Source: Candidatus Puniceispirillum sp.
GTDB lineage: Bacteria > Pseudomonadota > Alphaproteobacteria > Puniceispirillales > Puniceispirillaceae
Assembly (NCBI GenBank): GCA_028382965.1
Contig: JAOEUK010000012.1
Coordinates: 1-56,462 of the forward strand
DNA length: 56,462 bases
Direction of reading: 5' to 3'
Part shown: positions 14,142-20,162 of the stretch, one piece after another
How positions within the stretch are numbered: position 1 is the first letter of the stretch
Layout of the letters: the number at the start of each line of letters is the position of its first letter
Notes under the pieces: model-generated
What the model saw: the letters and a program-made list of their open reading frames with translations, nothing else
Told to the model about the DNA's origin: nothing
The model's database searches: none
Made by a program: the position numbers and the translations under genes

Positions 14142-14540
14142 TTATTTTTTGTCAATAAAATCCAGTGATGCAGAATTGATACAATAGCGAAGGCCAGTTG
14201 GCTGCGGCCCGTCAGGAAACACATGACCAAGATGCGCATCACACCGTTCACAATGCACTTCAGTGCGGCGCATGAAAAAACTGGAATCAACAGTTTTGCC
14301 AATATTACCCTCATCAATTGGTGCAAAAAAACTGGGCCAACCAGACCCAGAATCGAATTTCGCATCCGATGAAAATAAGGCGTGATCGCAGCATATACAT
14401 CGATAGACACCCTTTGCCCAATGCTTGTCCAATCGGCCAGAAAACGCAGGTTCAGTACCATGATTTCGGGCTACACGAAACTGTTCCTCTGTCAGGACCT
14501 CGAGCCATTCACCTTTGGTTTTAATTATTTTTTTACTCAT
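14142..14540 (-). CDS. msrB: Peptide-methionine (R)-S-oxide reductase
   Basis: Repairs R-methionine sulfoxide in proteins using thioredoxin; cytoplasmic. 132 residues, the family norm. The zinc-binding CxxC pairs are visible (CICC near residue 48 and CERC near residue 98). The catalytic block is RYCINSASLDF near the C-terminus, with GSGWPSF upstream. The start ATG overlaps the stop of the CoxL-like gene by four bases (ATGA), so translation is probably coupled. Zinc-type MsrB without signal peptide. Confidence 0.95.
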   Translation of the reverse strand: MSKKIIKTKGEWLEVLTEEQFRVARNHGTEPAFSGRLDKHWAKGVYRCICCDHALFSSDAKFDSGSGWPSFFAPIDEGNIGKTVDSSFFMRRTEVHCERCDAHLGHVFPDGPQPTGLRYCINSASLDFIDKK

Positions 14541-16870
14541 CCACCTGCCTCTTCTTTTACCGTATTTTGGTTTTCTTTTGCCTTTATCATATTAAAAATT
14601 TTCAACGGCGTTGCTGGCATATCTATATGAGTAATTTCTAACGCATCACATACTGCCGAAATTACCGCTTGCGGTGCACCAACTGCTCCCGCCTCGCCAG
14701 CACCCTTAATGCCAAGAAAATTGTTTACACAAGGCGTATTGCGCATATCAATCATAAAACCGGGAAAATGATCAGCTCGCGGCAAGGCATAATCCATCAA
14801 TGACCCGGCAAGAAGCTGGCCGGAGTCATCATACACAACATTTTCTAACAATGCTTGCCCAACACCCTGCACAATGCCACCGTGAATTTGACCAGCAAGT
14901 GTCATTGGGTTGATAACGAGGCCAAAATCATCCATCACACTATAACGCACAACTTCAACAGCACAGGTTCCCTTGTCAATTTCAACCTCAACAATATGAC
15001 AGCCATAAGGATAGGTGGCACCATCGGTTTCATAGGGCTGTATGCAGTTCAACTGGTGCATTTGGCCTGGCTGAGCCAAATGACGCACAAGGTCTTCAAT
15101 TGTCAATGACCTGTTTGTGTCCTTGACCAAGAACAAGCCATCAGCAAATACCAACGTGTCAACATCACAATCCAGCATTTCAGCGGCAAGCGGCGTCGCG
15201 ATATCAATAATATTCGCCGCAGCCATCGCCGTAGCCGACCCAAGAACTGCCGCCATACGAGCCCCGCCAGTTGTCCCGCGCGGACTGCGGTTTGAATCCC
15301 CCTGGTGCACAGTAATCAAATCCACATCATATCCCAAACAATCTGACAGAATTTGCGTTATCGTGGTGCGGTGTCCCTGCCCATTACATTGCTGAGAACC
15401 ATAAAGAATGATCCGGCCATCATCCTCAAACTCGATATCAACTCCCTCATCAGCCCCGCCGCCGCATTGTTCTAAATACATACCAAAACCAATGCCACGA
15501 AATTTGCTTTGTGTATCTGACTGAGCCCTACGATTGGAAAATCCAGCCACATCCGCCTGTTCGATGGCAGCTTCAAACAACTGAAGAATCTCGCCAGAAT
15601 CAATTGTGCCACCTGATACCATTTCATAGGGTATCTGATCTGTTTTGATCAAATTAACGCGGCGTATATTAAGCCGGCTATGGCCCGTCTCAACAGCAAT
15701 ATGATCCATTAGCCGTTCCATCAGATAATTAGCTTCCGGCCGGCCAGCACCGCGATACGCATCCACTGCAGGGGTGTTAGTCATCACTCCAATTACCCGA
15801 AGGCTTGCTGCCTTGATGTCATATACAGTAGTCAGCGTACGACTTCCTGACAAGGTCGGAATATAAGTAGAAAAATTCGACAGCCATGAACCCATATTGG
15901 CATGCACAGTCACCTCAAGCGCCAGAATACGGCCAGCTTCATCAATCGCTGCGCGCGCCTGCGACCGGTTATCACGTCCGTGCAAATCCGATAAAAAACA
16001 ATCAGACCGACTTTGCTGCCATCGCACCATTACCCCAAGGCGGCGCGCGGCCCAGGCAATGCAAATCTGCTCCGGATGTAGAAATATTTTAAAGCCAAAG
16101 CTACCACCAACGTCGCCGGTTTGAACATGAACATCTGCCAGGTCCATAGACAAGGATTTTGCAATCTGTTCAGCAACGCCAACCACACCTTGCGTACCAC
16201 ACCAAATATCCAGCGATCCAGCCCTTTTGCCTGGGGCCACTACCATTGGGCGAGTTTCCATTGAGTTGATCACAACGCGATTATTAATCACGTCGACCTC
16301 AACAATTTTATGGCCATTGGCAATAGCAGCCTTCATCGCTTGATTGGTTCCATCAAAATTGCCAGCCCCCCATTCAAAGGCAGTATTATTGGGATAACAG
16401 TCATATAATTGCGAAGCATCATCGCCCATCGCCGCGTAAATATCAGTAACAACTGGCATTGACTGATACTCAACCTTAATCAGTTCGATCGCAGAATCAG
16501 CGATTTCCTGATTTTTGGCAATTACCATGGCAACAATATCACCAGCATGGCGATTGATATCGCGCACCATTGCAGACTTGCTGACAAGTTGCATCTTACC
16601 ACCACCAATCAAAGGTGGACAAAACTGGCACTCAATATCGCCAACATTATCAGCATCAAGATCTGCCTGTGTTGCAACAAGACTAACCCCATCCAGATTA
16701 CGTGCGGCACTGACGTCAAGGTGAAGCATACGCGCATGCGCGTAAGGCGCCCGTAAAAACGCAACGTGCAACCCTTTGCCAGGAAACACGTCATCGCTAA
16801 AACAACCTGCACCAATCAGTAACCGCCGGTCTTCAACGCGGGGAGCCGATTGTCCAATTCCAAATTTCAT
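14537..16870 (-). CDS. Xanthine dehydrogenase family molybdopterin-binding subunit (CoxL-like)
   Basis: 777 residues of the molybdenum hydroxylase large subunit, with the aldehyde oxidase/xanthine dehydrogenase domain 1 at residues 15-130 and the Mo-binding domains after it. Typical motifs are GDVGGSFGFK (252-261), AYRGAGRPE (371-379), QQCNGQGH, and GAGEAGAVGAPQ near residue 731 with the catalytic Glu. The loop is AYRGAGRPE, not the AYRCSFR of true aerobic CO dehydrogenase (form I), so CO oxidation should not be assumed. The FAD and 2Fe-2S subunits are absent on both sides, so partners must be elsewhere. Its stop overlaps the msrB start. The substrate is unknown. Confidence 0.88.
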   Translation of the reverse strand: MKFGIGQSAPRVEDRRLLIGAGCFSDDVFPGKGLHVAFLRAPYAHARMLHLDVSAARNLDGVSLVATQADLDADNVGDIECQFCPPLIGGGKMQLVSKSAMVRDINRHAGDIVAMVIAKNQEIADSAIELIKVEYQSMPVVTDIYAAMGDDASQLYDCYPNNTAFEWGAGNFDGTNQAMKAAIANGHKIVEVDVINNRVVINSMETRPMVVAPGKRAGSLDIWCGTQGVVGVAEQIAKSLSMDLADVHVQTGDVGGSFGFKIFLHPEQICIAWAARRLGVMVRWQQSRSDCFLSDLHGRDNRSQARAAIDEAGRILALEVTVHANMGSWLSNFSTYIPTLSGSRTLTTVYDIKAASLRVIGVMTNTPAVDAYRGAGRPEANYLMERLMDHIAVETGHSRLNIRRVNLIKTDQIPYEMVSGGTIDSGEILQLFEAAIEQADVAGFSNRRAQSDTQSKFRGIGFGMYLEQCGGGADEGVDIEFEDDGRIILYGSQQCNGQGHRTTITQILSDCLGYDVDLITVHQGDSNRSPRGTTGGARMAAVLGSATAMAAANIIDIATPLAAEMLDCDVDTLVFADGLFLVKDTNRSLTIEDLVRHLAQPGQMHQLNCIQPYETDGATYPYGCHIVEVEIDKGTCAVEVVRYSVMDDFGLVINPMTLAGQIHGGIVQGVGQALLENVVYDDSGQLLAGSLMDYALPRADHFPGFMIDMRNTPCVNNFLGIKGAGEAGAVGAPQAVISAVCDALEITHIDMPATPLKIFNMIKAKENQNTVKEEAGG

Positions 16871-16958: not shown

Positions 16959-17564
16959 CTAGTTACTAAACTCGCTGTATGCCAAATAAATCCGGATCAG
17001 TGTTGTGACCCAGCATAAAAGCCCAAACCCACAAACCATATAAATGAAATAGCTAGGCCAGATGAGCACTGCAAGAAGCAGCAGGGTGGTTTCAGCCCCT
17101 TCAGTTAACCCGCCAAGATAGTAAAAGGCCTTTTTTCCTCGGATTTCAGTCGAAATATGATGTTTCTCAGCAAAAATGGCAAAGGCCAAAAAACTGCTTG
17201 CCGTGCCCATAAAGCTAAAAATTAGAAATGCTGCGGCTAGAGCATTTTCTGGCTGGGCAACAGCAAAGGCAAAGGGAATGGCGCTATAAAATACAAAATC
17301 ACAAACAATATCCAGGTAGCCACCAAAATCAGTTGACCTGCTGGCGCGAGCAACTGCGCCATCCAGCCCATCAGCAAGACGATTTAACACGGTAAACCAA
17401 AACGCTAAATCGAATAGCTGAAAGGCTACACACCCAACTGCAGAGCAGCCAAAGACAGCGCCTGTAACTGTTACCTGATTTGGTGTTACTCCTAAGCCAG
17501 CAAGCCAGTGGCCAGCTGGACTGAATAGCCGGTCAATGCAAGGGCGGATCTGGGCGTCAAACAT
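16959..17564 (-). CDS. CDP-alcohol phosphatidyltransferase, YnjF-like
   Basis: Integral membrane enzyme, 201 residues, that transfers a phosphatidyl group from CDP-diacylglycerol to an alcohol. The family signature is complete: DGLDGAVAR at 65-73, then Asp85 and Asp89 in GGYLDIVCD. The block FYYLGGLTEGAETTLLL (about 146-162) matches my memory of E. coli YnjF more than PssA or PgsA, so the head group is uncertain. About five hydrophobic segments follow the signature. It starts 11 bases after the stop of a degenerate phosphatidylserine decarboxylase homologue, so the two are probably one transcript. Confidence 0.85.
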   Translation of the reverse strand: MFDAQIRPCIDRLFSPAGHWLAGLGVTPNQVTVTGAVFGCSAVGCVAFQLFDLAFWFTVLNRLADGLDGAVARASRSTDFGGYLDIVCDFVFYSAIPFAFAVAQPENALAAAFLIFSFMGTASSFLAFAIFAEKHHISTEIRGKKAFYYLGGLTEGAETTLLLLAVLIWPSYFIYMVCGFGLLCWVTTLIRIYLAYSEFSN

Positions 17565-17575
17565 TGTTGGAACCC

Positions 17576-18301
17576 CTAGTCAGGATTAACTGGCTGTTTT
17601 GCAATCGCCTTTGGTTTTTTAATGGGTCGCGGGGCAAATCGAGCCAGCTTTGTTTCTCCAGCAATCATGCTCTGGCCAACCAAAACTAGAATTTTGCACT
17701 GCACCGGCACATAAAGATCGACGACTCCTGCTATTCGTGCCAACCCAATAGGGTTCCCTGCCCTCACAAATTTTCCTTCAGATAAACGGCAAATGAGCTG
17801 ACGTGCAGTTTTACTGCCTAACTGAACTAAAATTACACTTCTGCCAAAGCGATCCCGTAAACTAATTTCACGGCGTTCATTAGTTAAACGTGCCTCCCGC
17901 CAGGCAGCAGGATTGTCACCCCATTTTTTAAACAGGCCCGGAGATAAATGATTGTCAACAATATGGCCAGTAATTGGACTTGTTTGCAACTGCGCATCAC
18001 TCAGCCGTGTTTGTATAGTGATACGATGTGCTGGCACCAGTGCATTGTAGACAGACCCGTTGGGGAATACATCTGTTTCAATTTCCAGAACAACACCATC
18101 ACATGGCGCATAGATAGTTTCCTCATCTGATCCAATTTGCCGGCAAGGCACGCGCAATAGATGAGACAGCCAAATCATCAGACCAAGTAGAAAATATCCA
18201 AGCGGCAACGAGATAATGCTAACAAAAATTGTCAGAACACCCGCCAACGCAAGAACCGGCCATCCGTCATTAGAAATTTTCCACTTTGATCCTAAAATCA
18301 T
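17576..18301 (-). CDS. Phosphatidylserine decarboxylase homologue lacking catalytic residues (probable pseudoenzyme)
   Basis: 241 residues that align along their length with proteobacterial Psd: an N-terminal GWP plus two hydrophobic segments (15-50), a PCDG block (66-69) where Psd has PADG, and a C-terminal block ending VGQSMIAGETKLA. The Asp of the catalytic triad is present (Asp68). However, the CHVNR histidine is Gln104, within a 22-residue gap-free match. The self-cleavage Gly-Ser that makes the pyruvoyl group is Ala191-Gly192 (LARIAGVVDLY). The protein should therefore not process itself or decarboxylate. The reading frame is intact, arguing for a kept, altered role. It precedes the YnjF-like transferase by 11 bases. 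Confidence 0.8.
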   Translation of the reverse strand: MILGSKWKISNDGWPVLALAGVLTIFVSIISLPLGYFLLGLMIWLSHLLRVPCRQIGSDEETIYAPCDGVVLEIETDVFPNGSVYNALVPAHRITIQTRLSDAQLQTSPITGHIVDNHLSPGLFKKWGDNPAAWREARLTNERREISLRDRFGRSVILVQLGSKTARQLICRLSEGKFVRAGNPIGLARIAGVVDLYVPVQCKILVLVGQSMIAGETKLARFAPRPIKKPKAIAKQPVNPD

Positions 18302-18364: not shown

Positions 18365-19513
18365 CTAGTTCTTGTTATCCGCACTCCGTGCAGATTTTGG
18401 AAGAACAAATATCTGTTTTGGATAAATTAAATCCGGATTTACAATATCCGCCTGGTTGCGCCTCACAATATCTACATATCTAACTCCATCGCCAAACCGG
18501 CGATAGGCAATACTCCAAAGAGCATCCCCCTTGTTAATAACAACCAGCGGTGATCCATCTTTCCCTTTCAAGAGATCACGTGATTTAATAGGAAGATCAT
18601 AACGGGCAACAACCTTATCAAAATCATCCAACAACACAAACTTCATTTGGTGCTGAAACGTTTCTAGAGCCAGACTACCGCCAATTTGCCATGCGCCATC
18701 AGTGAGAGCCATTGCCTCTCCAAATGGTCTACTTGCATCAGTTGCAATGATCCGCATCCCACCTTTTGATATACCAGAAATAAGAATTCGTGATTCATCT
18801 CGCCAAACAATAGCGGTTGGAAAAACTTTCGCAAGATCGCTCTTTACACTCATGTTGTCAGATAATGTTACCTGCTCAGCAATGATATTTTTCATGTCCA
18901 CATCACTGGTTTTAGATGTCATTTTCTTCTCATCATCAGACGACTGGATTAAAACAGGGACTTCGGTTGCTATTTCCGGCAACATAGCCACCAATGGCTT
19001 GGTTTCAGAGTCTGTGTAAATCTCAATAGCCAAAGTGCGATTGGCCAATCTGGTAGAGCCATCTTTGTTCTCTATTGCTATTGAAATGAGATGTTGGCCA
19101 GCGGCTAATCGTTTTTCTAGAACTATAACCCAATCACCTAGCCTATCAGCAACTGTTTTCCCAAGAATTACTTTCCCTTCAAAAATAAGGATTGTTGCTT
19201 TCGGTGATGAAGTTCCAGCAAAAACAGCACCACCATCGGGCTGCACTCGCGCAATATTAATGGCAAGCAGTGGGGGTGTATTTGCACCAGGCTGAGCATT
19301 CAACGTTTCAGGTACAACCAATTTTTTTAGATTATCTGGCGTTTCTATATGTTTTGATATTGCTTTTGTAACGTCAATGGATTGGTTATGCGAGCCCACC
19401 TTTTCAACACCATCATCTTCGAACACCATTGCTAACGCCAGAACAACAAGGACACCGCCCACCGCAATTAAGGTATAAAGTATCAAGCGCACTGATTGGG
19501 TTTCCTTTCTCAT
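18365..19513 (-). CDS. LysM domain protein with N-terminal membrane anchor
   Basis: 382 residues. A hydrophobic segment at about 10-30 probably anchors the protein, leaving the rest in the periplasm. The middle contains two beta-rich repeats of the bacterial Ig-like or carboxypeptidase-regulatory kind (about 90-165 and 245-320; VFAGTSSPKATILIFEG in the first). A C-terminal LysM module starts with KGDALWSIAYRRFGDG and ends with YPKQIFVLPK, typical of peptidoglycan binding. Related alphaproteobacterial proteins are annotated only as LysM proteins. It lies 63 bases upstream of the decarboxylase homologue on the same strand. Confidence 0.8.
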   Translation of the reverse strand: MRKETQSVRLILYTLIAVGGVLVVLALAMVFEDDGVEKVGSHNQSIDVTKAISKHIETPDNLKKLVVPETLNAQPGANTPPLLAINIARVQPDGGAVFAGTSSPKATILIFEGKVILGKTVADRLGDWVIVLEKRLAAGQHLISIAIENKDGSTRLANRTLAIEIYTDSETKPLVAMLPEIATEVPVLIQSSDDEKKMTSKTSDVDMKNIIAEQVTLSDNMSVKSDLAKVFPTAIVWRDESRILISGISKGGMRIIATDASRPFGEAMALTDGAWQIGGSLALETFQHQMKFVLLDDFDKVVARYDLPIKSRDLLKGKDGSPLVVINKGDALWSIAYRRFGDGVRYVDIVRRNQADIVNPDLIYPKQIFVLPKSARSADNKN

Positions 19514-19598: not shown

Positions 19599-20162
19599 AT
19601 GAAAAAAATTTGTGTTTTTACTGGTGCCGCCTCTGGCACCAATCCACTTTACAAAGATGCTGCATATCAAATGGGCCAAATGATTGCATCACGTGGGTTT
19701 GGCCTGGTTTATGGAGGTGGAAAGATGGGCCTGATGGGAGCGGTTGCTGATGGTGCCCTAGCAGCCAACGGCACAGTAACCGGTATTATCCCAAAGTTTC
19801 TAGATAATATTGAGGTTGGCCATAAGGATGTGACAGAGCTTCATATCATTGATTCTATGCATGAAAGAAAAGCAATGATGTATGATATCGCCGATGCCTT
19901 CATCATTTTTCCTGGTGGACTTGGAACGCTTGATGAAACAATGGAAATCATTACATGGCGACAATTAGGGCTACATAAAAAACCAATTATTATTGTTAAT
20001 TTGAACGGCTACTGGGATACTATGTTGATAATGATCCAGAATATTATCAATCAGGGTTTCATGCATCATAGCCACGGCAGCCATTTTGATCAGGTCGACG
20101 ATCTGGACAACCTTATGAATAAGCTAGATCTCAAATTTAAATGCGATCAAATTCAAACCTGA
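19599..20162 (+). CDS. LOG family protein (nucleoside 5'-monophosphate phosphoribohydrolase)
   Basis: 187 residues of the LOG / TIGR00730 family, originally mislabelled lysine decarboxylases. These enzymes cleave cytokinin riboside monophosphate or AMP to the free base. The signature PGGLGTLDE is at 105-113, preceded by the conserved MHERKAMM (87-94). The N-terminal Rossmann strand is KKICVFTGAASG with YGGGKMGLMG (38-47). The gene is divergent from the LysM gene and converges on icd. The physiological substrate is unproven. Confidence 0.88.
   Translation: MKKICVFTGAASGTNPLYKDAAYQMGQMIASRGFGLVYGGGKMGLMGAVADGALAANGTVTGIIPKFLDNIEVGHKDVTELHIIDSMHERKAMMYDIADAFIIFPGGLGTLDETMEIITWRQLGLHKKPIIIVNLNGYWDTMLIMIQNIINQGFMHHSHGSHFDQVDDLDNLMNKLDLKFKCDQIQT

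Follow-up and report, generated by a model that had tools for sequence, protein, structure and literature searches.

The stretch of DNA analyzed in this study (hereafter the window; 56,462 nucleotides from Candidatus Puniceispirillum sp.) contains, in minus-strand order, genes for a LysM protein, a protein with the fold of phosphatidylserine decarboxylase (Psd) that we named PsdX, a YnjF-like CDP-alcohol phosphatidyltransferase, a molybdopterin hydroxylase and MsrB (Table 1). The psdX and ynjF-like genes are separated by 11 bases, and the overlap of the psdX stop codon with a Shine-Dalgarno-like sequence suggests that translation of the two genes is probably coupled. A scan for promoters and terminators returned fewer sites than the means of shuffled sequences.

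Table 1. Features of the psdX-ynjF locus, in positions of the window
Feature	Position	Strand	Remarks
MsrB	14142..14540	-	downstream of molybdopterin hydroxylase
Molybdopterin hydroxylase large subunit	14537..16870	-	downstream of the pair; syntenic within SAR116
YnjF-like CDP-alcohol phosphatidyltransferase	16959..17564	-	201 aa; ATG at 17564, TAG at 16959; complete motif DGLDGAVAR...GxxxDxxxD
TAGGGG, psdX stop overlapping Shine-Dalgarno-like sequence	17573..17578	-	8 nt before ynjF ATG
PsdX, Psd-fold pseudoenzyme	17576..18301	-	241 aa; PF02666 match and open frame; ATG at 18301, TAG at 17576; no internal stops
Ala191-Gly192 codons at invariant Gly-Ser self-cleavage site	17726..17731	-	by alignment with canonical Psds
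Gln104 codon at invariant catalytic His	17990..17992	-	E. coli H144 position
Asp102 codon, kept	17996..17998	-	taken as E. coli D142 position, two before His
Asp68 codon, kept	18098..18100	-	E. coli D90 position, by alignment to canonical Psds
Two hydrophobic helices, residues 13-48	18158..18265	-	H13-30 and H32-48 in the model; hydropathy up to 2.48
LysM protein	18365..19513	-	Pfam; weak Ig-like match below cut-off; upstream of PsdX
LOG-like protein ('possible lysine decarboxylase' family)	19599..20162	+	divergent; edge of conserved block

PsdX matched the Pfam family PS_Dcarbxylase (PF02666) over residues 47-217 with 56.2 bits (cut-off 22, E 4.6e-15), and all eleven NCBIfam Psd models that matched it did so far below their cut-offs (best 108.4 bits vs 315). 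The structure model has two N-terminal helices, which are hydrophobic and probably form a membrane hairpin. Together with the open frame and Asp68, these features agree with the preliminary description of the gene as one that keeps the Psd frame, the membrane segments and the Asp of the catalytic triad. A sequence-only search of the PDB with PsdX gave three chance matches, to myosin, and a scan of genome contigs with the single protein returned 97 stretches, none of which was confirmed.

Alignment with canonical Psds bore out that both the catalytic His and the Gly-Ser cleavage site are lost in PsdX; Asp, His and Gly-Ser were all present in each of 31 canonical rows, which were selected among a larger number of fetched canonical copies (17 rows of the order, 14 of the class). 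Across 55 family copies, the Ser position held Gly in 45, Pro in 4, Ala in 3 and Ser in 3, and the His position held Gln in 34, His in 9, Lys in 6, Arg in 4 and Leu in 1, with one gap. Thus, loss of Ser was nearly universal in the family, whereas the specific replacement by Gln, as first noted in the window, was found in 34 of the 55 copies. All nine copies with His lacked Ser, and the three copies with Ser (L046, L285 and L286, all of genus g8) had Gln in place of His and Arg, Cys or Gln in place of the preceding Gly, so that no copy combined His and Ser. The Asp68 column was better kept (Asp in 51, Glu in 3, one gap) than the Asp102 column (Asp in 35 of 55); in L278, which a contig end truncates, the Asp and His positions are blank. 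The charged residues conserved over the 55 copies were Asp68, Arg143, Glu145 and Arg167. Glu145, present in 95% of them and not conserved in the canonical rows, is specific to the PsdX paralogue, and Arg167 and Gly176 occurred in all 55. Among the columns present in the window protein, none was conserved as His, Ser or Cys in at least 85% of the copies. There is thus no sign in the alignment of a relocated catalytic dyad, and we rejected this candidate at the level of sequence.

A mutant study of E. coli Psd (PMC7952604) indicates that the lost residues are those needed for self-processing and decarboxylation, as had been proposed. The S254A change abolished self-cleavage; H144A and H144N abolished decarboxylation, yet both proteins were largely cleaved after purification. 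G253P stayed uncleaved, cleavage of G253A reached about 70% over time, and mutants of D90 were still active. By analogy with these mutants, PsdX should be uncut and inactive as a decarboxylase: without Ser, no self-cutting and no pyruvoyl group would be expected, leaving one chain without decarboxylase activity. Inactivity is least certain for the three g8 copies with Ser.

A structure model of PsdX, built from a nine-sequence alignment (pLDDT 79.6), consists of a beta barrel preceded by a helical hairpin at the N-terminus. It superimposed on E. coli PSD (7cnx) with a Z score of 11.4 over 140 residues at 2.6 A, the chains aligning only to model residue 190. The best Foldseek match was PsiD (E 6.2e-5, TM 0.47), and E. 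coli PSD was absent from the best 50 rows. Judged by entry titles, PsiD and a fungal arginine decarboxylase (8x4q, 9jf5) are further cases in which a Psd-like fold has been reused; however, both are titled decarboxylases, whereas PsdX lacks the Ser. Chains of EIIA-Glc, a non-catalytic protein that controls other enzymes, outranked E. coli PSD against the model (Z up to 14.4), and the model also matched LytM domains of the degenerate kind, EnvC among them. The likeness to EIIA-Glc and EnvC lies in the arrangement of the barrel in structure comparison and in the role of non-catalytic controller, but no sequence relation to either was shown and their partners are different, and it is taken as an analogy only. 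LytM factors that lack catalytic activity are described as regulators of other enzymes (PMC8416486).

The second member of the pair agreed with the preliminary description of a transferase like YnjF and not PssA: the window protein aligned with E. coli YnjF over 197 aa at 46% identity and matched Pfam CDP-OH_P_transf. In an alignment of 22 relatives, all four Asp residues of its CDP-alcohol phosphotransferase motif were invariant. The model of the protein (pLDDT 87.6) had the CDP-alcohol phosphotransferase fold, with matches to AF2299 and PIP synthases. It reached 28.3 bits against the PssA model TIGR00473 (cut-off 107) and 66.5 bits against the archaetidylinositol phosphate synthase model NF040950 (cut-off 180). 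Because of the former score, and because it was not significantly similar to the pssA-like protein encoded in the same genome, we rejected PssA as the identity of the partner. In E. coli, ynjF lies between ynjE and nudG and not with psd.

We then analyzed the distribution of the pair in the family. A YnjF-like gene was found in 55 of 61 family genomes and in all 28 near-complete ones (completeness of 90% or more, contamination of 5% or less). In all 55, a Psd-like match lay directly upstream on the same strand, with 0-169 bases between the profile matches. Named records with the pair belong to SAR116 cluster bacteria, one Candidatus Puniceispirillum and one unplaced alphaproteobacterial MAG, from which we infer that the window belongs to SAR116. 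Decay limited to one strain, which the preliminary description had put forward as the alternative to check in relatives, is therefore excluded. Matches were occasionally broken: two drafts (G082 and G092) had the PsdX match split between frames, G123 had a split YnjF match, and a contig end cut the G094 copy. In 17 hand-picked close pairs, with the first 8 aligned codons excluded, dN/dS was 0.06-0.21 for PsdX in every pair and 0.08-0.40 for YnjF, the latter values being possibly distorted by read-through before the start. These values support the earlier argument that the intact frame speaks against random decay. Mean column identity was 41% for PsdX (24 rows) vs 61% for YnjF (22 rows), indicating that PsdX diverges faster. 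With the catalytic residues lost across species and the frame under purifying selection, there is a strong case that PsdX is a pseudoenzyme.

The genome that contains the window (2.38 Mb, 39 contigs, 99.6% complete) was searched for an intact psd and pssA, as had been suggested. A second Psd with intact residues was found on another contig (C14), adjoining a pssA-like gene that is the best TIGR00473 match of the genome (88.9 bits, cut-off 107); the genome has another two members of the CDP-alcohol phosphatidyltransferase family. Thus, the usual route to phosphatidylethanolamine (PE) is probably present, and PsdX would be an extra copy.

Different results were obtained for ten genomes that carry the pair: five of the ten genomes of the SAR116 genus g7, one other SAR116 genome (G122), and G459 and three f49 genomes, which represent two families outside SAR116. 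No catalytic Psd was found in them, PF02666 matches being weak or missing (at most 39 bits), and no strong PssA match was found either (at most 36 bits, vs 86-105 bits in five relatives). PssA was called here by this score gap, since the TIGR00473 cut-off of 107 was passed by no genome tested, the pssA-like genes of relatives included. In all ten, a degenerate Psd lay directly before YnjF; the dead Psds of f49 had lost the Asp too. These drafts are estimated to be 81-95% complete and single absences could be gaps, but absence in five of five tested g7 genomes is harder to explain in this way. PE may be made in another way in these ten genomes, and since the pair is kept where neither Psd nor a strong PssA match is detectable, it seems not to depend on phosphatidylserine (PS) decarboxylation.

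Genus g7 also has a second degenerate Psd, detected as a weak match in 7 of its 10 genomes. Asp, His and Ser were lost in the four sequences read (minus strand; L266:1489-2154, L270:1489-2148, L271:1489-2148 and L273:1492-2148), and no YnjF or PssA was seen beside it. The degenerate L052, which is the same gene as L273, was grouped with this second Psd and not with the canonical ones.

To place the pair in a wider context, we considered a class sample of 386 genomes. A YnjF-like gene occurred in 90 of them, five of which were in the family. In the other 85, a canonical Psd lay nearby in 23, a dead Psd was directly upstream in 4 (G459, G386, G297 and G180, all outside the family), and no Psd was present within the fetched stretch in 58; some of these stretches end at contig ends, and the flank was about 1.5 kb for L090, L092, L095 and L105. 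A PF02666 match was found in 274 of the 386 genomes, and the best match was weaker than E 1e-30 in six (G275, G297, G307, G422, G442 and G459), of which the sequences of G297 and G459 were read; G386 gave a weak match in one search and was absent from the class-wide list. Five scanned neighbours of lone ynjF genes showed no common theme.

In most psd-ynjF clusters of the class, psd and ynjF are separated by a gene that scores weakly as a CDP-alcohol phosphotransferase; it was PssA in both loci tested with a PssA query (L127 and L143). Larger flanks were examined for 19 class loci, and LysM was located upstream of the canonical psd, on its strand, in 14 of them, as well as in the named genomes L158, L159 and L167. 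The divergent LOG gene, as in the window, was present in four of all these. Synteny of psd with the gene for the LysM protein of the window (18365-19513) accordingly extends over several families of the class. The SAR116 loci have the order LOG, LysM, PsdX, YnjF and contain no pssA; LysM was upstream of PsdX in 14 of 14, and LOG and the hydroxylase were each present in 13 of 14. Because psdX occupies the slot of a catalytic psd, with LysM upstream and LOG divergent, descent in place appears most likely: PsdX probably derives from the psd of an old cluster, LysM-psd-pssA-ynjF, from which pssA was lost, and the psdX-ynjF adjacency is partly inherited from it. PsdX shares with bacterial Psds the fold, the N-terminal hydrophobic helices, the Asp positions and, for part of the class, the slot upstream of ynjF; it differs in the missing Ser and His, the expected lack of a pyruvoyl group, the lack of an adjoining pssA, and its scores below the cut-offs of the matched NCBIfam models.

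In a quick tree, SAR116 copies fell on one side of a branch with SH-aLRT 85, which is not decisive given the long branches, and a grouping of the dead Psds from outside SAR116 with the SAR116 copies was not rejected (p-AU 0.645, again with long branches in the tree). In G459 and the three f49 genomes, all outside SAR116, YnjF is likewise preceded by a dead Psd, and in the loci examined for this (L114, L120 and L247) the surroundings were different. In two families outside SAR116, an aldo/keto reductase follows the pair of dead Psd and YnjF (L114:3781-4869 and L247:1685-2788). Two other loci (L165 and L162) have LysM, YnjF and MsrB, and Psd is absent; thus, the locus can exist without Psd. They (L165:2796-5059 and the L162 locus) perhaps represent this locus once psd and pssA had been lost.

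Based on the long-lived pairing, the purifying selection, the probable coupling of translation and the persistence of the pair without detectable PE genes, we propose that PsdX is a conserved dead Psd that serves as a membrane-bound, lipid-binding partner of the adjoining YnjF-type transferase, a reading to which we give an even chance. In such a partnership, PsdX and YnjF would be made from the same message with coupled translation; PsdX would be anchored at the membrane by its N-terminal hydrophobic hairpin, its uncut barrel would bind phospholipid at the membrane surface, and it would present this phospholipid to YnjF or else activate or stabilize YnjF. The dead Psds before YnjF outside SAR116 and the paralogue-specific Glu145 also speak for this reading. 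Several observations count against it, among them the faster divergence of PsdX and the adjacency that is partly a legacy of the old cluster. In a rate-coevolution test on 12 genomes, in which PsdX distances were large, the partial correlation between PsdX and YnjF given canonical Psd was 0.09 (1129 of 5000 permutations were as high), and there was no signal beyond shared ancestry; the partial correlation between canonical Psd and YnjF given PsdX was 0.51 (0 of 5000 permutations). In addition, YnjF occurs without a Psd neighbour in many bacteria, and the 58 lone genes among 85, together with L165 and L162, suggest that YnjF in general needs no Psd. A further-reaching form of the proposal is more tentative, and we regard it as possible at most: the whole family would depend on a lipid synthase of two proteins, with the dead Psd as an obligate regulatory or substrate-presenting subunit of YnjF, and its product would be unrelated to PE, since relatives without a detectable PS/PE route keep the pair.

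Several other explanations were weighed against the partnership with YnjF. PsdX might be a new enzyme in which the Psd pocket is reused for other chemistry, perhaps on the lipid of YnjF. The four charged residues conserved over the 55 copies speak for this, and the titled activities of PsiD and the fungal arginine decarboxylase suggest that the fold can switch substrate. However, the alignment offers no Ser, His or Cys column conserved at the 85% level, and overall conservation of PsdX is weak, which makes this rather unlikely. It also seems unlikely that PsdX acts mainly with the LysM envelope protein, or with the membrane itself as a lipid sensor or scaffold, and that YnjF is a mere neighbour. 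The constant position of LysM upstream, both in SAR116 and before many canonical psd genes, speaks for this, but the dead Psd stays with YnjF in L114, L120 and L247, where no homologue of the window LysM protein was found at E 1e-8, and LysM and YnjF occur together without Psd in L165. Regulation of the canonical Psd or PssA by PsdX, as a decoy subunit or a PS buffer, would fit the presence of both copies in many SAR116 genomes, including that of the window; it is quite improbable in view of the ten genomes that keep the pair without a catalytic Psd or a strong PssA match. Finally, a functionless relic of the psd-pssA-ynjF cluster, held in place by translational coupling to ynjF, would account for the probable ancestral slot, the overlap of stop and Shine-Dalgarno-like sequence, the fast divergence and the broken frames in two drafts, but it is very improbable given the low dN/dS in all 17 pairs, the invariant Arg167 and Gly176, and the existence in other lineages of the locus without PsdX (L165).

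No Psd pseudoenzyme was found in the literature among open PubMed Central papers, a whole-word search of the same collection found no paper on YnjF, and a term search of the text of two SAR116 papers (PMC12262181 and PMC8547437) gave no lipid words; the wording 'phosphatidylserine decarboxylase-like' occurs in PMC12596935. The conserved pairing of a Psd-family pseudoenzyme with a transferase of the YnjF type appears to be new. Where homologues of ynjF lie near a canonical psd (for example in L127, L131, L143 and L159), their genome context hints at the function of E. coli YnjF. In part of the Alphaproteobacteria, ynjF comes after psd and pssA, and this gene order links YnjF to phospholipid synthesis; if PsdX is indeed a partner of YnjF, the pair would offer a handle on this transferase, which E. 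coli also has.
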